This document shows positions 2,766 to 42,581 of a stretch of DNA of 42,606 nucleotides, piece after piece (the stretch's first letter is position 1; every line of letters begins with the position of its first letter). A model generated the notes under the pieces. It worked only from the letters and a program-made list of their open reading frames with translations, was not told the origin of the DNA and made no database searches. A program made the position numbers and the translations under genes. The stretch covers positions 1 through 42,606 of IMG/VR virus record IMGVR_UViG_3300044623_001282. The stretch is one strand, 5' to 3'. This DNA comes from a virus.

Positions 2766-2978
2766 ATGTCAGTACTACATGCATTTGCTCGTAAGTTCAA
2801 TCCTCGTAGAAACTTTGATCCAACTAGTGTCACTGATCTGAAAGAGTTGAAATTTTTTAAAGAGCATAATACTTGGAAAGTAGGTTGCCCCTTTCATCTA
2901 GAGGATCCGTTCTTGGAAATTCCTGCAATGTGTATGTCAAAGTACACTGACTATATGCTCAAAAAGGTGAAAACATAA
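2766..2978 (+). CDS. small conserved protein before the terminator
   Basis: This 70-residue protein begins MSVLHAFARKFNPRRNFDPT and contains LKELKFFKEHNTWKVGCPFHLEDPFL in two adjoining stretches, ending YTDYMLKKVKT. Mixed charge and the motif W-x-x-G-C-P-F suggest a small globular domain of unknown role. The stop codon is directly followed by a strong terminator, so it is the last gene of the left rightward operon. Confidence 0.65.
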   Translation: MSVLHAFARKFNPRRNFDPTSVTDLKELKFFKEHNTWKVGCPFHLEDPFLEIPAMCMSKYTDYMLKKVKT

Positions 2979-3000
2979 AAAGCCCCGGAAGGGGCTTTTT
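2977..3000. terminator. bidirectional intrinsic terminator
   Basis: AAAAAGCCCC, loop GGAA, then GGGGCTTTTT form a perfect 10-bp hairpin with A-tract and T-tract. It lies between the converging genes ending at 2978 (+) and 3019 (-), so it can serve both strands. Confidence 0.95.
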
Positions 3001-3018
3001 TAATGGGTTCTATTGTTA

Positions 3019-24257: not shown

Positions 24258-25088
24258 ATGAAACAATTACTCACACTCCTAATATTGCTGTTCTCGGCAC
24301 TTGTCTATGCACAATCTCCAACTTCAACAGTACCACTTTCCCCGGATATAGCCGCAATTAAGAAGAAAAATGTCTTGGTTGTAGCAATGACCAAAAAAGA
24401 TAATCCTCCCTTCTTTAGTGGGGATGAAAAAAACATACGCGGACTAGATGTTGAAATTGCTCAACGCATAGGAGTATTACTTGGGGTGCCTGTGGAATTT
24501 CGCAGAGATGCAGAAAGTTTTGCCGATGTAGTTGAACAAGTTAGGTCTGGCGCCGCAGATGTTGCAGTAAGTAAACTGTCAATCACAGGTCCAAGACTAC
24601 TTACAGTTCGCTTTAGTGATCCGTACATCAAACTCAAGCAAGCAATGATTATTAATCGCTTATGGCTAAGTCAAAATAGTCAAGGCCGAGAAGTGTATGA
24701 AGTGATTAGAACATTTAACGGCAAGATATCTTTCATCCGTAACAGTAGTTATGATACATTTGCCCGTGCAAATTTCCCCAAAGCAATATATACTCCCGAA
24801 GATAGTTGGGATACGATTGTCAATAATGTAACTAGCGGTGCAATTGCTGCTGGATATAGAGATGAGTTTGAAATTAAGAAAATCTCATTTGAAAAGCCTA
24901 ATGCAGCAATTACTACAAAAACTGTAACTATTTCTGACTCTATTGATAATATTGCAGTTGCAGTAAATATTAACTCACCCCAACTACTAAGCATAGTAAA
25001 CTATGTAATTAAAAATGATTACAGTAATATTGACACTAAAAAGTTAATGGACCGATACAAGGCTGAAAAGTCTCCTGTAAAGAAATAA
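24258..25088 (+). CDS. periplasmic amino-acid-binding protein (SBP family 3)
   Basis: The 276-residue protein has a signal peptide (MKQLLTLLILLFSALVYAQS, likely cut after YA) without a lipobox. The mature part follows family 3 binding proteins: GLDVEIAQRIGVLLGV, DAADVAVSKLSITGPRLL-type segment with the conserved Arg, VRFSDPYIKLKQAMI, then the second lobe with FNGKISFIRNSSYD and AGYRDEFEI carrying the Asp expected to bind the ligand amino group. It should bind an amino acid in the periplasm. No ABC permease or ATPase is nearby; instead a secondary symporter follows 12 bases later. Confidence 0.88.
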   Translation: MKQLLTLLILLFSALVYAQSPTSTVPLSPDIAAIKKKNVLVVAMTKKDNPPFFSGDEKNIRGLDVEIAQRIGVLLGVPVEFRRDAESFADVVEQVRSGAADVAVSKLSITGPRLLTVRFSDPYIKLKQAMIINRLWLSQNSQGREVYEVIRTFNGKISFIRNSSYDTFARANFPKAIYTPEDSWDTIVNNVTSGAIAAGYRDEFEIKKISFEKPNAAITTKTVTISDSIDNIAVAVNINSPQLLSIVNYVIKNDYSNIDTKKLMDRYKAEKSPVKK

Positions 25089-25100
25089 TTAGGAAATAAA

Positions 25101-26387
25101 ATGAAATTTAATTTAAAAAACTTCTTATCTAGTCCATGGACTATTTTAGGATCAATTGTAATCGGAGTGTTGGCAGGAGTACATGCACCTGCATTAAGTA
25201 TGAACTTTGAAAGTGTTGGTGGAATTTACATTAGCTTGCTTAAAGTTGTTGTAGTACCTTTCTTGCTTGCAACAATTTTAGTTGGAGTTGTTAGTCTTTT
25301 ACAGAAAGAAGGCAGCGCCGCAATGATACGAAAGATTATCATAGGCTTCATTGCAAGTATGTTCATTGCCGCAGTGATAGGAGTTGGTACTGTTGCTGTT
25401 ACCGGCAGTGAAATGACACCTGCAAAACAATCTCAACTTGGTGCAATTGTCAACGATAAAGATTCTGGTAGTGATCTAAACATCACTCTAACAGAACCCA
25501 TGCCCAAGGCTCCACATATTGATCCAATACTGATGGCACAAAAGTTTATTCCGGAAAACATCTTTAACACCCTGGCTGCAGGTGAAAGTTTAAAGATTGT
25601 TATCTTTTGTTTGATATTTGGTATTGCACTGGGCAATATTAAAAGTTCTGGTCAAGAAATGCTGGTAGATGTATTGAAAAGTGTACAACAGGCCAGCATC
25701 AGTATCTTTAAGTTTTTAAACTACTTTCTACCGTTTGCTTTATTAGCAATGATCAGCAGTCAAGTTGGTAAAGTTGGAGTTGGCATATTCTTGACCATGG
25801 TTGAGTTTATCATGCAACAAGCAATTGGTGGATTCTTAATTATTGCACTAGGTACTGTTGTCATCTGGAAGCGTTCAGGTCTTAGCTTGATGACTGTTAT
25901 TCGTGAAACCAAAGAAACACTAATTGTTGCGGTTAGCTCACGCAGTAGTTTAGCATGTATCCCATACGCACAAGAAGCATTGCATAAGTTGAAATTTGAC
26001 AAAACAGGTGTTGAGTTAACTGTTCCGCTGAGTTTTACAGTTAATCGTATTGGTAGTATTGCGTATTATGCAATTGCCACAGTGTTTATTGCCAACATTT
26101 ATGGGGCTCCAATGGGAGTAACCGGGTTGTTAGTTGTATTGTTTGGTAGTATTCTTGCTGGGCTAGCCAGTGCAGGTACAACAGGTATTCTTACAGTTGC
26201 TACCGTAGCAGTTGTTTGTGATTTATTAAAACTTCCAAGTGAAGCAGTATTGGTATTGTTGATTGCAGTTGATCCATTAATGGACATGATTCGTACAGCA
26301 AGCCATGTACACGGTAATGTGGCTGTGACTGCTTTCGTGTGTGATAAAGAGCCAGAATATGGACAAGATCAAAGAGTTACTGCTTAG
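25101..26387 (+). CDS. dicarboxylate/amino acid:cation symporter (SDF family)
   Basis: Full length at 428 residues. Family marks: hairpin HP1 AVSSRSSLACIP (Arg281-Ser283 align with Arg276-Ser278 of GltPh), helix 7 SFTVNRIGSIAYY (Asn315), HP2 GLASAGTTGI, and helix 8 DPLMDMIRTASHVHGN, where Asp391, Asp395, Arg398 and Thr399 match GltPh Asp390, Asp394, Arg397 and Thr398. Arg398 predicts an acidic substrate such as aspartate, glutamate or a dicarboxylate. The NMDGT sodium motif is replaced by NRIGS and GltPh Asn401 by His402, so ion coupling probably differs. I recall RSSLA/NR variants in an uncharacterised bacterial subfamily. It is membrane-embedded and overlaps the holin gene. Confidence 0.9.
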   Translation: MKFNLKNFLSSPWTILGSIVIGVLAGVHAPALSMNFESVGGIYISLLKVVVVPFLLATILVGVVSLLQKEGSAAMIRKIIIGFIASMFIAAVIGVGTVAVTGSEMTPAKQSQLGAIVNDKDSGSDLNITLTEPMPKAPHIDPILMAQKFIPENIFNTLAAGESLKIVIFCLIFGIALGNIKSSGQEMLVDVLKSVQQASISIFKFLNYFLPFALLAMISSQVGKVGVGIFLTMVEFIMQQAIGGFLIIALGTVVIWKRSGLSLMTVIRETKETLIVAVSSRSSLACIPYAQEALHKLKFDKTGVELTVPLSFTVNRIGSIAYYAIATVFIANIYGAPMGVTGLLVVLFGSILAGLASAGTTGILTVATVAVVCDLLKLPSEAVLVLLIAVDPLMDMIRTASHVHGNVAVTAFVCDKEPEYGQDQRVTA

Positions 26388-26964
26388 TTTATTAAACTAC
26401 ATAGGTGAAAGTCCATTTCGCTTATTCACGGTTATTCTATTATGTGTACTGGGATTTGGCGGATGGATCATATACTCAGAAAAAGATGCGTTTATTGCTA
26501 GTTATCGGGCTCAACAGGCCATGCCAAAGATGAATGGTCGATATGAGGACGCACATAACTTTTTGCTGAAAAACACCACTGCTGAAATGGTGGCTATATT
26601 AGAAGTAAATACACTTTCAAATACAAGAAAAATAGCATTTTTATCTACCCGCGGCGCCGGTAGAGATAAAAATCACGATGGTGTTAATGTTGGGTTGTTC
26701 TCAAAAAATTATGATAACAACACCGATGTGATCAGTTTAATGTCGGGTAAAATTCCCTGTAGTTCATATCTCAAACCGCAAAGTTTGATTGGATTTGTAT
26801 ATCGTGATTATGGTGTGAATTTCATGTGCAGAATCAGTGTACCGGCTGAACCCGGTGTTTTCATTGGACAAATAAGTGTGGGTTGGAAAGAACCCCCAGA
26901 CAACATAGAAGAAATTCAAACCGCTATGATGATTGCTTCTTCAATACTGTATAGTAAGAAATGA
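26359..26964 (+). CDS. t: T4 gp t-like holin
   Basis: A 201-residue protein with a short cytoplasmic amphipathic helix (MDKIKELLLSLLNYIG), one membrane span (about 20-39, FRLFTVILLCVLGFGGWIIY) and a periplasmic domain. It follows T4 holin in order: (K/G)D(A/S)F...Y after the span, a mid-domain, then C-terminal MCRISVPAEPGVFIGQISVGW and a final helix MMIASSILYSKK, matching T4's CPYFNLDNIYAGTITMYW and AARILGRAK. Two cysteines could form the periplasmic disulfide. The ATG at 26359 is chosen over an upstream GTG at 26341. It overlaps the symporter gene by 29 bases. Confidence 0.75.
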   Translation: MDKIKELLLSLLNYIGESPFRLFTVILLCVLGFGGWIIYSEKDAFIASYRAQQAMPKMNGRYEDAHNFLLKNTTAEMVAILEVNTLSNTRKIAFLSTRGAGRDKNHDGVNVGLFSKNYDNNTDVISLMSGKIPCSSYLKPQSLIGFVYRDYGVNFMCRISVPAEPGVFIGQISVGWKEPPDNIEEIQTAMMIASSILYSKK

Positions 26965-27023
26965 TACTTCCTTCTATTATCAGTGTTGTGTTACTAGTGA
27001 TACTAATATTGGTGTTAATATGA
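26961..27023 (+). CDS. 20-residue transmembrane peptide between holin and racemase
   Basis: The frame MILPSIISVVLLVILILVLI begins in an ATGA overlapping the holin stop and ends in the TGA that overlaps the racemase ATG. Every residue but Pro and Ser is hydrophobic, enough for one span. The double overlap fits translational coupling. It may modulate the holin, as small membrane peptides do in other lysis cassettes; this is inference. It could instead be only a spacer that happens to lack stops. Confidence 0.5.
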   Translation: MILPSIISVVLLVILILVLI

Positions 27024-27733
27024 GCAAGCGGCTTGGTGTATTGGGTGGTATGGGGCCTGCTGCCTCAGCCGAATTTATGGTAAGACTGATTGCTCAAACT
27101 CCGGCAAAGCGTGACCAAGACCATATCCCTGCAATTCTTTGGAGCGACACCACAGTTCCAGACCGTAGTACAAGTATGCGAAATGGTGATGACAAACCGT
27201 TACCCTACCTGTTAGCGGGAATACAAGGATTAATATCAACCGGTTGTAATATAATTGTTATACCATGCAATACTGCACATTTTTGGTTTAACGAAATGGA
27301 AAAACAAGCATCGTGGCATGCTAAAATTTCTCATATTGTAGATAGTGTGGCAGATGCATTAAGGGACATAAAAGTTACTAATGCTAAAATAGGCGTCATG
27401 GGTACACAAGCAACTATTGAGTTGGGTATGTATCAGTACCGTCTAAATAAGTTAGGTTGGGATTGTATTGCACCGACTAAAGAAGAAATGGACACACTAG
27501 TACAGCCTGCCATTGATTTAATTAAAGCCAATCAGATTGCAGAAGCATATCCAATGTTAATGACTGTAATTCATAGTCTTATTGACAAAGGAGCAAAAGC
27601 AGTGGTATTAGGCTGCACTGAAATACCACTGTCTATTAAAGAAGATACAGTACAGGATACACCAATAATTAACAGCATTGACAGTTTAGTAAAGTCTGTT
27701 ATTAAAGAATTCAAAAAGGGGAAACTAACATGA
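27020..27733 (+). CDS. aspartate/glutamate racemase (PLP-independent)
   Basis: The 237-residue protein matches Asp/Glu racemases: RLGVLGGMGPAASAEF at the N-terminus, IPCNTAHFWF with Cys83 and VLGCTEIPL with Cys199, the two catalytic thiols. It lacks a signal peptide, so it acts in the cytoplasm, interconverting L- and D-aspartate or a related acidic amino acid. The start at 27020 is set by the overlap with the preceding peptide and the family N-terminus. Beside an acidic amino-acid symporter it would have an imported substrate. Confidence 0.9.
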   Translation: MSKRLGVLGGMGPAASAEFMVRLIAQTPAKRDQDHIPAILWSDTTVPDRSTSMRNGDDKPLPYLLAGIQGLISTGCNIIVIPCNTAHFWFNEMEKQASWHAKISHIVDSVADALRDIKVTNAKIGVMGTQATIELGMYQYRLNKLGWDCIAPTKEEMDTLVQPAIDLIKANQIAEAYPMLMTVIHSLIDKGAKAVVLGCTEIPLSIKEDTVQDTPIINSIDSLVKSVIKEFKKGKLT

Positions 27734-28056
27734 ACTTATCATCGGTTATATTTGTAATCGCAGTATTTGCCTCAGGTGGTGTTTTTGCACAAGCAAAAAG
27801 TCCCGAAGAACTTGTGAATGTGAAAATAGCATGTTATGATACTGATATACTAATTAAAACATTACTTGACACACATAAAGAGTATCCCATACTTATGGGG
27901 ATAACCGACGATAACGCAAATTCCACTATGGCAGTTTGGATAAACTTTAGAACTAAAACATGGACTATAGTTGCTACTAAGGAAAAGGTAAGCTGTGTTA
28001 TTGTATCAGGTAAGGGAATAGAATTAGTTCCATATAAAAAGGAACCAATGATTTGA
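27730..28056 (+). CDS. small secreted protein, possible periplasmic lysis regulator
   Basis: A 108-residue protein with a signal peptide (MNLSSVIFVIAVFASGGVFA, cut before QAKSP). The mature part has two cysteines (ACYD and VSCVIVSG), a strand pair around MAVWINFRTKTWTIVATK and a short tail. I recall KTWTIVAT...SCVI from orphan phage proteins. By size, export and position after the holin it could be an RI-like antiholin that binds the holin's periplasmic domain; this is a guess. It begins by ATGA overlap and ends in the TTGA of the next gene. Confidence 0.65.
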   Translation: MNLSSVIFVIAVFASGGVFAQAKSPEELVNVKIACYDTDILIKTLLDTHKEYPILMGITDDNANSTMAVWINFRTKTWTIVATKEKVSCVIVSGKGIELVPYKKEPMI

Positions 28057-28790
28057 AGAAAACTGTACTATTTTTGCTATTAGCCGCATCCCAATGTGTA
28101 ACTTATGCACAATCCAATTTAACGGCTCAAGCATGGTTGATTGCAGATGCTAATGGTGCAATACTTGAGGGTGTGCATACCACTGAGGTTAGGGCTATTG
28201 CTAGTATAACTAAATTAATGACAAGTATGGTTGTATTAGATAGTGGGCAATCATTAACTGAAACAATTCCCAAGAAACTTTACAATAGAAACTTCACCAG
28301 ACAAGAATTATTCAATTTAGCAATTGTTAAATCAGACAACAATGCTGCTAGAATGTTATGCGAATACTATCCTGGTGGAGTTAAAAAATGTGTTGAAGCA
28401 ATGAATACAAAAGCTAGTTCATTGGCTATGAATAATAGCCGGTTTACTGACCCAACTGGGTTGTTTAACACCAATGTAAGTACCGCAGAAGATTTAGTTA
28501 AATTAGTAATGGCTGCAAAGAATTACCCAATCATCACTAATGCAAGTAATACATCAATCATTAAATGGAAAATCAATAAGAAGAAATCTGCGGTCTTTCA
28601 CAATACTAACAGGCTAGTGGGCAAAGGTGTTGATTTTATAGTAAGTAAAACAGGATGGATAACTGCCAGTGGCGGATGTATTGTTATGATGTTACAGGGT
28701 GAGCAGGGTATTAGAACTGTAATCCTATTAGGTAGCAAGAATACACAGACACGCATCCCAGAAGCGTATATGTTATCTAAGCTACATTAA
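28053..28790 (+). CDS. PBP7-type D-alanyl-D-alanine endopeptidase
   Basis: This 245-residue protein starts at TTG (28053) overlapping the previous stop. The signal peptide MKKTVLFLLLAASQCVTYAQ targets the periplasm. It has the S11 penicillin-binding motifs: Ser51-x-x-Lys54 (SITK), Ser94-Asp-Asn96 and Lys199-Thr-Gly201. Like PBP7/8, it lacks the extra C-terminal domain of PBP5 and would cut D,D-bonds in peptidoglycan cross-links or stems. It converges with the next gene, overlapping it by four bases. No lysozyme or amidase is seen here, so it may take part in wall breakage. Confidence 0.9.
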   Translation: MKKTVLFLLLAASQCVTYAQSNLTAQAWLIADANGAILEGVHTTEVRAIASITKLMTSMVVLDSGQSLTETIPKKLYNRNFTRQELFNLAIVKSDNNAARMLCEYYPGGVKKCVEAMNTKASSLAMNNSRFTDPTGLFNTNVSTAEDLVKLVMAAKNYPIITNASNTSIIKWKINKKKSAVFHNTNRLVGKGVDFIVSKTGWITASGGCIVMMLQGEQGIRTVILLGSKNTQTRIPEAYMLSKLH

Positions 28791-34269: not shown

Positions 34270-35204
34270 TCATTCCCTGGTCCAAATAACTCCGTCAAAT
34301 TTAGGCGGTAGATTGTCTAAGTCAAAATAAGCCAACTCAAATAAATCAGCAGCGGGATCATGTCCAGCATAGCCCCTAGGATTTGCAGCAACCAAAGTAT
34401 CACCCATGTAATACATATGAGGATCATGTACATGGCCACATGTCCAGAGGACAATCTGAGGATGATCCAAAATGAATTCACTCAAATCACTGTGATAACC
34501 ACCGTTCATCAAGTCTTGCCCAACATAACGAGGATGCGTACTCATTGAAGTAGGAGTATGATGTCCTACAATAACAACCTTGCTATCTTTTGTATCAGCC
34601 AATACTGTTTTGAAATAGCCAACTGTTTGGAGATGCCTAATCGCAGTATGTGCAGGCCGCAACTTAGTATAGCCAAGTTCATCATTACGAATGACTCTAA
34701 AATCATTCAGCATTCCACTCAATGCATGAAGCGTAAGTGGATCGCCCTTATTGCAGTCAGTCCATAGAGTTGCACCAATGAAGGTAACATCACCAATCAC
34801 CTTAGTGTCTTGCTCAAGAAAATATACATTTGGAAACTTACTATATTCATCACGCAGATATTGGATACTTGCTTTCCAGTTGCCATGATAGAATTCGTGA
34901 TTGCCTGCAACTACTACAACATGCGGGAATTGAAAACTAACTCGTTTAATAAACTCACGGAAACGCAATGCGGTTGCTTGTCTGCGACCCAAGTCAGCGA
35001 GATTTACATTACTATAAGGACCATAAGTCATTTCAGGATGATTGTGAAGGTCCTCGGCGATAAGGATATCACCGGACAGGATTAGTACATCTGCATTCTC
35101 TGTATTTTGAAGATTGATATCTTGGAACTCCAAGTGTAGTTTCACTAGAGGTCGGAAGCTAGTGCAATACGCAAACTTCCGACCTCTTTCTCTTTCTGGT
35201 TCAT
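34270..35204 (-). pseudogene. calcineurin-type metallophosphoesterase split at metal motif 1 (pseudogene or recoded)
   Basis: A frame from ATG 35204 (AGGA upstream, consensus promoter) reads MNQKEKEVGSLRIALASDL and stops at TAG 35145-35147. A second frame from GTG 35143-35145 reads VKLHLEFQDINLQ and continues 291 codons with the other metallophosphoesterase motifs: LILSGDIL (25-26), VVVAGNHEFY (81-84), VIVGHHTP and WTCGHVHD. The first motif should read SDLHLEF; Asp is in the first frame and His in the second. Removing 11 bases between CTC (35148-35150) and CAC (35134-35136) restores it. TAGTG would allow re-initiation but not an intact site. Either recent inactivation or recoding fits. Confidence 0.75.
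35147..35187. repeat. 12-bp perfect inverted repeat inside the split gene
   Basis: AGAGGTCGGAAG (35147-35158) and CTTCCGACCTCT (35176-35187) flank a 17-base loop. In the minus-strand message the hairpin lies in the coding part just 5' of the TAG stop, with its 3' arm encoding ASDL. It could stimulate recoding, or be the trace of a template-switch event. Confidence 0.9.
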
Positions 35205-35232: not shown

Positions 35233-35261
35233 ATTATAACACCTATTTTAATAAATGTCAA
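35233..35261 (-). promoter_or_regulatory. sigma-70 consensus promoter for the metallophosphoesterase
   Basis: TTGACA (35256-35261), 17 bases, TATAAT (35233-35238) on the minus strand, 28 bases before the ATG at 35204. It supports 35204 as the true start. Confidence 0.9.
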
Positions 35262-35336: not shown

Positions 35337-35978
35337 ATGACTATTTATTACCTCTATGTAAAGACGCATAGAATAACCGGGTTAAATTATTTAGGATATA
35401 CTTCCAAACTTGATCCACATAAATATCCAGGATCTGGAAAAAGATGGAATCTTCATTTGAAAAAACACGGATATTTATATGACACTAAAATCCTTAACCG
35501 ATGTATTTCTAAATTAGCAATAAGAGCATGGGGGTTATTTTACAGTAGATTATGGTCTATAGTTAAAAGTAAAAAATGGGCTAATTTGAAGGAAGAAAAC
35601 GGTGACGGTGGAGGATGCTTTGGTGAAGTCAATGGAATGTACCGTAAAACTCATACAGATGCAGTAAAGACTAAATTGGGGAAAGAAGCATCATTAAGAT
35701 TTAAGGGTAAATCATATGAAGAACTTTATGGTAAAGATAAAGCCGATTTACTTAAAAAGAAACGATCAGATAACCTCAAGGGAAAAGACAATTCTTTTAA
35801 GAACAATCCTAGATTTGATAACAATGAATATACTTTTTTCAATGTAAAAACCGGAGAAATAATTAACTGCACCCGATGGGTATTAATACATAATTACGGT
35901 GTACGAGGGCCTGTAGCCAGTGGAATTATTAATCACGGCTCAGTCAGCAGTCAAGGTTGGTGTATTTTGTTTGTATAA
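35337..35978 (+). CDS. GIY-YIG-like homing endonuclease with NUMOD3 repeats
   Basis: A 213-residue protein. Residues 3-45 (IYYLYVKTH, TGLNYLGYTSK, YPGSGKRWNLHLKKHG) fit a phage GIY-YIG-type nuclease domain. Two NUMOD3-like DNA-binding motifs follow: GEVNGMYRKTHTDAVKTKLG (96-115) and GKDNSFKNNPRF (149-160). The C-terminal segment YTFFNVKTGEIINCTRWVLI to GWCILFV is a further DNA-contact module. It is the only rightward gene in a long leftward region, AAGGAG precedes it, and it abuts a broken gene, all typical of a mobile free-standing homing gene. Confidence 0.75.
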   Translation: MTIYYLYVKTHRITGLNYLGYTSKLDPHKYPGSGKRWNLHLKKHGYLYDTKILNRCISKLAIRAWGLFYSRLWSIVKSKKWANLKEENGDGGGCFGEVNGMYRKTHTDAVKTKLGKEASLRFKGKSYEELYGKDKADLLKKKRSDNLKGKDNSFKNNPRFDNNEYTFFNVKTGEIINCTRWVLIHNYGVRGPVASGIINHGSVSSQGWCILFV

Positions 35979-35998
35979 ATCACTGCATAGGGCTATTT

Positions 35999-36265
35999 TC
36001 ATTTTGTTAACAATTCTATTAATTTCTTTTGGGTGATCACCTCGTGAACACTTTTTACTTCTTTGATTACCATTTCAATTTCAACGACTTCCCATTCCGA
36101 TATTTTATGATTAAGAAGTTGGTCATTCATAACCAGTGTCAAGAATGTACGCAACTGACCAATCTTCTGAAAGATTCTTCCAGAGAAGGTATATGAATTA
36201 TAACGCGGTGTTCCAGTCACATACCATTCTGGATTGTCTTTACTTCTAATCTTGTAATAAATCAT
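35999..36265 (-). CDS. small conserved phage protein
   Basis: An 88-residue protein: MIYYKIRSKDNPEWYVTGTP, SYTFSGRIFQKIGQLRTFLT, SEWEVVEIEMVIKEVKSVHE. I recognise the YKIRxK...GTPRxxxxxxGxIFxxIGQLRxxL pattern from large phages; function unknown. It overlaps the SWIM gene by four bases. Confidence 0.7.
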   Translation of the reverse strand: MIYYKIRSKDNPEWYVTGTPRYNSYTFSGRIFQKIGQLRTFLTLVMNDQLLNHKISEWEVVEIEMVIKEVKSVHEVITQKKLIELLTK

Positions 36266-37558: not shown

Positions 37559-37592
37559 TTTTCAAGTCCTTTAATTAACTGTCTAAGAGTAT

Positions 37593-37621
37593 ATTATATA
37601 CCCAAACTCATTTGTTGTCAA
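37593..37621 (-). promoter_or_regulatory. sigma-70 consensus promoter, repeated early cassette A
   Basis: TTGACA (37616-37621), 17 bases, TATAAT (37593-37598), then the leader CTTAGACAGTTAATTAAAGG shared with cassettes B and C. Confidence 0.92.
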
Positions 37622-37625
37622 CCTT

Positions 37626-37865
37626 TTACAGTGCTTCCAACTTAGCGATTTCAGCCTTCAATGCCTGAATTCGTTCAGCAACAACTTTAGCTTTGACAAG
37701 TGGAATCTGTTTCATTACATCATCAAAAAACTTGTTAAAAGTAACCCCTAGATTCTCGGCAGCAGGGCGCCATTCCCTTTGAGAAACCATACCTTGTGTC
37801 AGTTTGTCTTTAACTGCTTTTTCAGCATATTGATTGATTGCGTTTGTGTATTTTATTGTTGCCAT
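37626..37865 (-). CDS. small helical protein with C-terminal coiled coil
   Basis: A 79-residue protein: MATIKYTNAINQYAEKAVKD, EWRPAAENLGVTFNKFFDDV, RIQALKAEIAKLEAL (a leucine-heptad ending). No family recognised. It is placed behind a repeated early promoter. Confidence 0.65.
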   Translation of the reverse strand: MATIKYTNAINQYAEKAVKDKLTQGMVSQREWRPAAENLGVTFNKFFDDVMKQIPLVKAKVVAERIQALKAEIAKLEAL

Positions 37866-37897
37866 TTTTAGTCCTTTAATTAACTGTCTAAGAGTAT

Positions 37898-37926
37898 ATT
37901 ATATACCCAAAACCATTTATTGTCAA
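37898..37926 (-). promoter_or_regulatory. sigma-70 consensus promoter, repeated early cassette B
   Basis: TTGACA (37921-37926), 17 bases, TATAAT (37898-37903) and the same leader as cassette A; drives the gene at 37865. Confidence 0.92.
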
Positions 37927-37928
37927 AT

Positions 37929-38153
37929 TTATTTGCGTTTTGCCTTGGAATTTTTAATTTCCTCAGCACGCCGGAATGCGTTCAGATCATCATTAGTTAA
38001 CCAACCAGAACCCCATCTTGGGCCTGCTCCTCCACCGACAGTCCACCGTGAGGGGTGCTTGAGCAGTTCGGGTTTCAGCTTGTCAATCGTCCACATTGGA
38101 CGATTAGCAAGCCAATCAGCATTGCGGGCATTTGTTTCAGTTTGGCTTGTCAT
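37929..38153 (-). CDS. small basic protein
   Basis: A 74-residue protein: MTSQTETNARNADWLANRPM, WTIDKLKPELLKHPSRWTVG, GGAGPRWGSGWLTNDDLNAF, ending SKAKRK. Trp/Gly/Arg-rich centre and basic tail; no family recognised. The leader before its ATG contains CTTAGACAGT but the promoter part of the cassette is decayed. Confidence 0.6.
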   Translation of the reverse strand: MTSQTETNARNADWLANRPMWTIDKLKPELLKHPSRWTVGGGAGPRWGSGWLTNDDLNAFRRAEEIKNSKAKRK

Positions 38154-38409: not shown

Positions 38410-38442
38410 CCTGCTGTCCTTTAATTAACTGTCTAAGAGTAT

Positions 38443-38471
38443 ATTATATACCCAAAATCATTTAATGTCAA
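38443..38471 (-). promoter_or_regulatory. sigma-70 consensus promoter, repeated early cassette C
   Basis: TTGACA (38466-38471), 17 bases, TATAAT (38443-38448) and the shared leader; drives the gene at 38409. Confidence 0.92.
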
Positions 38472-38475
38472 CCTT

Positions 38476-38571
38476 TTACGGCTTCATCATAAACGCAAAG
38501 TAATAGAAAAAAGGGCCAAACATTGTTACTGCAATGATGGCTGCTTGAAGTAGTTCAATTAAGTATTTCAT
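38476..38571 (-). CDS. 31-residue membrane peptide, predicted leaderless
   Basis: ATG at 38571 to TAA at 38476: MKYLIELLQAAIIAVTMFGP then FFYYFAFMMKP. The chain is almost wholly hydrophobic, one or two short spans. A TTGACA/TATACT promoter ends six bases before the ATG, so the message should begin at the start codon; no ribosome binding site is present. Function unknown. Confidence 0.55.
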   Translation of the reverse strand: MKYLIELLQAAIIAVTMFGPFFYYFAFMMKP

Positions 38572-41604: not shown

Positions 41605-41883
41605 ATGATCAAATTTCTAAAAAGTCTATTCGGGATTGAAACCACAGCCCCAGTAGCAACACCCGCACCTATGGTAACAGCCCCTTATAAGATTCCGGAA
41701 CCAGCAACAGTAACACCAATTCTATTAGTAGTTGAAGCTGCACCGGTCGTAGTAGCTAAAAAAGCACCTGTTAAAGCTAAAGCACCTGCTAAGCCAAAGG
41801 TAGTAAAGCCTGCTGCGGTTAAAGCACCTGCTAAAGCACCTGCTAAAGCACCAAAAAAGCCTAAGATTAGCATCGCCAAGTAA
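41605..41883 (+). CDS. histone H1-like Lys/Ala/Pro-rich protein
   Basis: A 92-residue protein: an amphipathic start MIKFLKSLFGIETTAPVATP, a Val/Pro/Ala-rich middle, and a tail of KAPAK-type repeats (KAPVKAKAPAKPKVVKPAAV, KAPAKAPAKAPKKPKISIAK). This composition is that of H1-like DNA-compacting proteins. GAAGGAG is correctly spaced to ATG 41605; an earlier in-frame start at 41590 lacks one. It could condense phage DNA. Its stop overlaps the next start (TAATG). Confidence 0.7.
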   Translation: MIKFLKSLFGIETTAPVATPAPMVTAPYKIPEPATVTPILLVVEAAPVVVAKKAPVKAKAPAKPKVVKPAAVKAPAKAPAKAPKKPKISIAK

Positions 41884-42581
41884 TGAATACGATAGGGTTT
41901 GACCTAATTAGTGATTTGAATCTATACCCCGAGGATAGTTTCAATTGGGAAGGTAAAGCAACTAGTTTATACTGCATAATAGCAGGAAATATTAGTGAAG
42001 ATTTACGCACTATAAAACAAACTCTGTCGCATTTATCTAAATTTTATCAAGGTATATTTTATACTCTGGGTTCGTTGGAATATCATAATACAAGTGATAT
42101 AGTAAAAAGAACGAACGAAATTTATAAGGCTTGTCTTTCAATTAATAATTTAGCAATAATGCACCACAATGTGGTTGTTGTTGATGGGATAGCAGTTGTG
42201 GGAGCAAATGGATGGTATGGAAATACTATACACGATGAAGAAGCTGAAAGCATACTTGAAGTGCATCGTAATGCAGATATATTATACCTCAGAAATACAA
42301 TAGAACGACTGCAAAAACACCTAGATGTTAAAAAGATTATAGTGGTCACTAACTCAGTTCCCAGTATAGAGTTATACTTTGGTGAACATCCCAGCACTAT
42401 AGATAAGCAACTTAATTTAAATATCGCTTTAGTTGCCGACACCGAAAGCAAAATTTCACATTGGTTATATGGTACATATGAAAAAGTAGTTGACACCAAT
42501 ATAAACGATATCAACTACATTAACAATAGCAGTTTCAAAAGAAACCCCTATTGGTCTAGACGAATAGAAATTTCTATTTAA
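41883..42581 (+). CDS. degenerate metallophosphoesterase-fold protein
   Basis: A 232-residue protein that keeps the order of calcineurin-like phosphoesterases but has lost the metal residues: SDLNLY (Asn13 for His in DxH), IIAGNISE (Asn36 for Asp in GD), YTLGSLEYH (Ser-Leu for Asn-His in GNHE), VVTNSVPS (for GHHTP) and HWLYGTYEK (for GHVH). Compare the protein at 34270 for intact motifs. Phosphatase activity is unlikely; it may act as a binding partner. It converges with a gene at the right edge. Confidence 0.65.
   Translation: MNTIGFDLISDLNLYPEDSFNWEGKATSLYCIIAGNISEDLRTIKQTLSHLSKFYQGIFYTLGSLEYHNTSDIVKRTNEIYKACLSINNLAIMHHNVVVVDGIAVVGANGWYGNTIHDEEAESILEVHRNADILYLRNTIERLQKHLDVKKIIVVTNSVPSIELYFGEHPSTIDKQLNLNIALVADTESKISHWLYGTYEKVVDTNINDINYINNSSFKRNPYWSRRIEISI

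Follow-up and report, generated by a model that had tools for sequence, protein, structure and literature searches.

The window, which is the whole 42.6-kb contig (42,606 nucleotides) of an uncultured virus, contains a split metallophosphoesterase (MPE) gene on the minus strand. Read along that strand, the gene runs from a short upstream ORF, MNQKEKEVGSLRIALASDL (last codon CTC), through TAGTGAAA and CTA to CAC, where HLEF... begins. The CTC and CTA codons are referred to here as the take-off and landing codons of a proposed hop. The features of the locus are as follows.

35976-36002, minus strand: remnant of the original MPE start, ATGAAAATAGCCCTATGCAGTGATTTA, encoding MKIALCSDL
35337-35978, plus strand (opposite to the MPE gene): putative GIY-YIG-type homing endonuclease gene, 213 amino acids
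35281-35310, plus strand: hairpin in the endonuclease leader, stem GTAGTT/AACTAC, upstream of AAGGAG and ATG
35233-35261, minus strand: cassette-borne sigma-70-type promoter of the rebuilt MPE gene (TTGACA 35261-35256, 17-nt spacer, TATAAT 35238-35233)
35148-35204, minus strand: upstream ORF MNQKEKEVGSLRIALASDL, the replacement MPE N terminus (ATG 35204-35202, take-off CTC 35150-35148)
35147-35187, minus strand: 12-bp hairpin AGAGGTCGGAAG / CTTCCGACCTCT (arms 35187-35176 and 35158-35147)
35140-35147, minus strand: coding gap TAGTGAAA, 8 nt, with UAG then UGA in frame
35137-35139, minus strand: landing codon CTA (Leu)
34270-35136, minus strand: MPE body (HLEF...), 288 codons, resuming at CAC 35136-35134 and open to a normal stop

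A preliminary description of this DNA had reported a consensus promoter, AGGA and an ATG ahead of a frame ending in CTC-TAG. All are in place: AGGA sits ahead of the ATG (35204-35202, minus strand), and the take-off codon is followed directly by TAG (35147-35145) and then TGA (35144-35142). Reading out the 11 nt at 35147-35137 restores SDLHLEF, as had been proposed; expressed as a hop, this is take-off at CTC, an 8-nt gap and landing at CTA. The hairpin reported just 5' is also present. Its stem lies directly 5' of CTC and overlaps it, the 3' arm taking in the take-off codon, and its RNA folding energy is -26.7 kcal/mol (z = -6.96 against 200 shuffles). The matching of the Leu codons stands in part: both are Leu CTN, but CTC and CTA agree at just two of three bases. 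Promoters resembling the cassette promoter are also found in three other contigs (L202, L194, L200). An Rfam search of the window gave no match.

The MPE body belongs to the calcineurin-like metallophosphoesterase family (PF00149), which it matches from profile position 26; the later motifs GD, GNHE, HH and GHxH are present. Motif I (D-x-H) is split at the gap and is continuous solely if the gap is skipped. The fold of the intact MPE of a near-twin contig, L002, matches PptH (6unc) with a Z of 24.9; a PDB sequence search with the MPE gave no match.

Several other features occur in the window. Host-like genes at 24258-28790 (plus strand) encode a family-3 solute-binding protein, a sodium:dicarboxylate symporter, an Asp/Glu racemase and a D-Ala-D-Ala carboxypeptidase; the cluster looks like a phage-borne acidic amino acid and cell wall module. 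Three 64-nt repeats, 88-95% alike, are found at 37566-37629, 37871-37934 and 38416-38479. On the minus strand they read as promoters of the TTGACA...TATAAT form, followed by a common leader whose last bases are AAAGGAC, and similar sequences are found in many relatives. An ORF at 41883-42581 (plus strand) includes the MPE-like phrases ISDLNLY and AGNIS; it has no match in Pfam or PHROG and is possibly a second, diverged phosphoesterase.

The near-twin L002 is 97.7-99.3% identical to the window on both flanks, but the roughly 840 bp that separate the upstream ORF from CAC are missing from it. The cassette insertion point is exactly SDL^HLEF, and this fixed site is uninterrupted in L002. The original MPE start (36002-35976) is severed from HLEF by the cassette; L002 is 97.7% identical up to this remnant, and uninterrupted relatives have the same kind of MPE start. 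Between the remnant and HLEF, the cassette carries the endonuclease gene on the other strand, the promoter, a ribosome-binding site and the replacement N terminus. In L002 itself the first MPE codons (2977-3003, GCGTCGGACATC) are closer to those of cassette-bearing L003 than to the window remnant, as though a cassette, since lost, had converted them or left them behind.

The cassette gene is assigned as a putative GIY-YIG-type homing endonuclease from its closest fold, the PHROG 314 match of a relative and the neighbours of its homologues. Foldseek places the I-TevI catalytic domain first among the PDB matches of the structural model (prob 0.98, but E 0.1), the relative in L090 is a PHROG 314 homing endonuclease, and homologues adjoin thyA-like, tRNA and other genes. 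A Pfam search gave no hit for the window copy and placed GIY-YIG in L210 below threshold; among cultured phages there were distant hits only. Relatives beside other targets (L095, L102, L106, L114) lie next to thyA-like genes, a tRNA cluster and a sequence that is tmRNA-like by eye, for which ARAGORN made no call. The hairpin in the endonuclease leader covaries across the endonuclease family (GTAGTT/AACTAC, GAGGAT/ATCCTC, GCGGGT/ACCCGC) and perhaps controls endonuclease translation.

Endonuclease relatives and pattern scans yielded 21 further viral contigs with an interrupted MPE gene, giving 22 contigs and 13 lineages with the window; these lineages partly share ancestry and are not independent events. 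All 13 have CTN-TAG-N(0-5)-CTN-CAY in the MPE gene, that is, Leu-TAG-(0-5 nt)-Leu-His.

Window: take-off CTC, gap TAGTGAAA, landing CTA
L202 and L211: take-off CTT, gap TAGTGA, landing CTC
L197: take-off CTC, gap TAGTGA, landing CTC
L196 and L203: take-off CTT, gap TAGTGA, landing CTT
L194: take-off CTT, gap TAG, landing CTC
L214, L193, L200 and L210: take-off CTT, gap TAG, landing CTA
L199: take-off CTG, gap TAG, landing CTG
L213: take-off CTA, gap TAG, landing CTA

Gap length is thus 3, 6 or 8 nt, each gap containing one or two stops, and the stop right after take-off, first noted in the window, is TAG in 13/13 lineages. A looser scan, with the take-off and landing codons left free and every TRR stop accepted, recovered TAG and CTN/CTN sites only. 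Take-off and landing codons are identical in five of the 13 (permutation p 0.051), and in eight their third bases belong to one class (p 0.27); codon matching beyond CU is not significant.

The preliminary description had suggested comparing homologues for the gap and the hairpin, and this comparison separates the two sets cleanly. The uninterrupted set, gathered by similarity to the window MPE, comprises 60-61 distinct contexts. All read SD(L/I)-HLEF, and neither the stop nor a strong hairpin occurs in any of 61. The codon at the take-off position in these relatives is TTA or TTG in 26/60 and ATC in 4/60. On the MPE tree the interrupted label needs at least five changes; the interrupted genes form one seven-lineage clade and six scattered lineages, with the window among the recent ones. 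The deep interrupted clade has no sampled uninterrupted neighbours, a consequence of choosing uninterrupted genes for their likeness to the window.

The arrangement is more than a chance pattern, since stop, Leu codons and hairpin occur together in 12 other lineages, and a search of 257 Gb of cellular genomes for the junction pattern gave 13 matches, all unrelated to an MPE. The exact window hairpin and the exact window junction have no second copy in the viral contigs. A scan with GATCTNTAG gave real sites in L094/L214; the remaining seven hits are unrelated. In cultured phages, the two MPE homologues examined (MKIRYVSDLHLE and MKVKIVSDLHLE) are both uninterrupted. A plain 11-base insertion, offered earlier as the simpler account, is contradicted by the same arrangement in unrelated contigs of many metagenomes. 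A private assembly error or single insertion is rejected for the same reason; moreover, repeat contigs have identical site sequence.

Twelve aligned lineages share the stem, with a 9-bp core in which 100% of cells are paired. Two core pairs show double compensatory change, and 0/500 shuffles match the covariation score; five of the nine pairs are invariant and uninformative for covariation. This covariation across lineages is not what a template switch, also offered earlier, would leave as sole origin of the hairpin. In L214 this position is taken by a weaker stem whose sequence differs (z -0.72). Local folding energies lie between -18.6 and -29.4 kcal/mol for 12 interrupted lineages; the thirteenth is at -9.0, and none overlaps the 61 uninterrupted contexts (median -2.9, minimum -7.2 kcal/mol).

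The last eight codons of the leader vary mainly at third positions and R-I-A-x-A-S-D-L is kept; the encoded leader looks to be under selection as protein. Leaders carry a KGKGVG-like sequence, and that of L214 is MRLALASDL only. A KKYK-type nascent-peptide motif was not found in the leaders. In L196, L207 and L212 (one lineage) the outer ATG frame is one base off the SDL frame and an internal ATG CGT ATA is in frame; the leader of this lineage may start there.

The best explanation of these sites, and quite a likely one, is programmed short translational bypassing (a 'stop hop') spread by a homing cassette. The GIY-YIG-type homing-endonuclease cassette would enter the MPE gene between the SDL and HLEF codons and supply a promoter, a ribosome-binding site and a replacement N terminus, which leads into Leu CUN, an immediate UAG, a second Leu CUN and the rest of the gene. 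Peptidyl-tRNA-Leu would leave the first CUN codon while UAG occupies the A site. On the geometry that we infer for take-off, the 3' arm of the hairpin, which ends at the take-off codon, would lie inside the ribosome and the 5' arm outside; re-forming behind the ribosome, the hairpin could help to pull the mRNA. The tRNA would then re-pair on the second CUN codon 3-8 nt onward, with His next, so that SDLHLEF is joined and the metal site is complete. For the CTT/CTA and CTC/CTA pairs, the tRNA-Leu would have to be permissive at the third codon position. The interruption probably also shields the cassette-bearing allele from its own endonuclease. Bypassing, which the preliminary description had set against a fresh pseudogene, is favoured because the stop, paired Leu codons and adjacent hairpin recur in 13 lineages with intact downstream genes. 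Given the differing gap lengths (3, 6 or 8 nt) and stop counts (one or two), readthrough does not fit every lineage and nor does a single frameshift; the Leu-to-Leu hop alone gives SDLHLEF in all 13.

It is unlikely that two polypeptides are made instead. The SDL peptide would stop at UAG and the MPE body would start internally, by reinitiation or at its own start, and the parts might reassemble like the split NrdA of phage Aeh1. Functional homing-split enzymes are known (PMC2988022), and in the window a GTG overlaps the TAG (TAGTG) in the right frame and would give MKLHLEF. However, the GTG within TAGTGACTC is out of frame, and the metal ligand Asp sits on the short peptide. L202 lacks a start codon for 24 codons after the gap and L193 lacks ATG, GTG or TTG for 60, which argues against reinitiation; an internal start is rejected because none is conserved.

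That the genes are dead or dying, the downstream frame being a relic behind a scar that homing left out of frame or with a stop, is quite unlikely. Compared with L002, the MPE body of the window has 100% amino acid identity, with three synonymous and no nonsynonymous differences. The insertion here is recent, the closest relative L002 being nearly identical and uninterrupted, so integrity in the window proves little. The preliminary description would have taken such a relative, combined with a decaying copy here, as a sign of decay; the relative exists, but the window copy is not decaying. L196 has an additional 1-nt offset upstream, which a relic might show. Against decay, open frames of 262-305 codons follow the site in 13 lineages (copies on early-ending contigs are cut) at pairwise protein identities of 42-75%. 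The dN/dS ratio is 0.16 for L193/L210 (at dS 1.13), 0.18 for L200/L210, 0.16-0.21 in the closest old group and 0.16-0.35 wherever dS is estimable; the closest pairs carry the weight because most dS values are saturated. An alignment containing eight interrupted genes shows no change at any of the later catalytic residues. The hairpin covaries, and relics would not retain the same stop and Leu pair. Judged by open frames, catalytic residues and purifying selection, the downstream gene is alive.

Readthrough, with UAG decoded as an amino acid via a suppressor tRNA or changed code, is very unlikely. Seven lineages do have a single in-frame UAG, and phages with recoded UAG are known (PMC10879173). 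However, five lineages have a UAG-UGA tandem and the window is out of frame as well, and the reading would insert two extra residues within the D-x-H metal motif. A search for a suppressor tRNA found none. Genes on the same contigs end in UAG, among them three in the window and, in L213 and L214, the MPE gene itself, and reassignment of UAG is rejected on this ground; going by these gene ends, UAG is a true stop here.

It is equally improbable that only the mobile element profits from the hairpin and stop, which would spoil the endonuclease target or control leader translation while the host gene is sacrificed or expressed at trace level. The endonuclease adjoins the interrupted site in 11/13 lineages, and a cleavage-protecting insert has been proposed for gene 60 of phage T4. 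Against this, the site and selection persist in L211, which has no endonuclease near the site, and in L193, which has a C-terminal remnant only; other endonuclease cassettes (L003, L043) make a plain in-frame fusion without a stop. Frameshifting is rejected too: a -1 shift would reach HLEF in the window only and add residues to D-x-H, and an RF2-like +1 shift (CUU_U) reaches the HLEF frame in 0 lineages.

To our knowledge, efficient bypassing in bacterial phages is represented almost wholly by T4 gene 60. There, a pause with UAG in the A site is followed by detachment of the peptidyl-tRNA, and forward sliding is aided by a 5' stem-loop that folds again behind the ribosome (PMC5009743, PMC11194080). 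The likeness to gene 60 drawn earlier holds, and the associated homing endonuclease, absent from the preliminary description, adds to it. Gene 60 likewise combines an endonuclease insertion, UAG directly after take-off and a 5' stem-loop in a split phage gene (PMC5009743, PMC3014915, PMC11194080). In both, take-off and landing codons are of the same kind and a critical protein is joined from two ORF parts (here SDL and HLEF, in 13 lineages), with the MPE gap presumed untranslated. The anatomy departs, however. The MPE gap is 3-8 nt rather than 50, and the codons are Leu CUN rather than Gly GGA; they are identical in gene 60 but CTC/CTA in the window and not always identical elsewhere. The MPE hairpin is solely 5', its 3' arm running into the take-off codon, whereas gene 60 also has a stem-loop within the gap. 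Gene 60 has a KKYK peptide, an HNH rather than a putative GIY-YIG-type endonuclease, and one lineage rather than many. The MPE site is not classed as a gene 60 member because identical codons, a gap take-off stem-loop and a KKYK peptide fail.

The MPE sites match synthetic stop hops more closely than gene 60. In synthetic constructs, matched codons flanking a stop hop (PMC5009743), and in E. coli 9 nt are read as one amino acid; L194, L193, L199, L200, L210, L213 and L214 are likewise Leu-UAG-Leu, read as one Leu under the stop-hop model. The MPE sites differ in being natural, conserved and accompanied by a hairpin. A 2016 review knew of no natural in-frame stop hop (PMC5009743); our search covered open-licence papers, and later reports may exist. 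The bypassing inserts of Magnusiomyces capitatus mitochondria are also short, skipped in translation, tolerant of imperfect codon matching and present in many copies (PMC5009743), but they are mitochondrial, occur in many genes and are not bound to one site or to the MPE-cassette endonuclease. In the split nrdA of Aeromonas phage Aeh1 (mobE insertion), an endonuclease gene likewise lies in the critical region of a still-functional enzyme gene (PMC2988022). Two polypeptides reassemble there, whereas the MPE genes have no conserved second start.

The sites probably represent a widespread, mobile natural class of stop hop. In this class a homing cassette would place a hairpin, an amber stop and two Leu codons in the active site of a phage enzyme, and selection would keep efficient 3-8 nt bypassing in many lineages, in some after endonuclease loss. 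A mobile endonuclease cassette repeatedly enters one enzyme gene of uncultured phages and leaves a stop in the active site, which, as the sequences suggest, ribosomes hop to make intact protein. As a family of 13 in which gap length (3, 6 or 8 nt) and codon pair vary and the hairpin covaries, the natural sites would show which signals are required. If bypassing is true, the locus would be a small system for ribosome studies, with a leader of about 19 codons. It would also mean that standard gene callers truncate or miss such genes, a warning to annotators, and would suggest that homing endonucleases repeatedly spread recoding signals.
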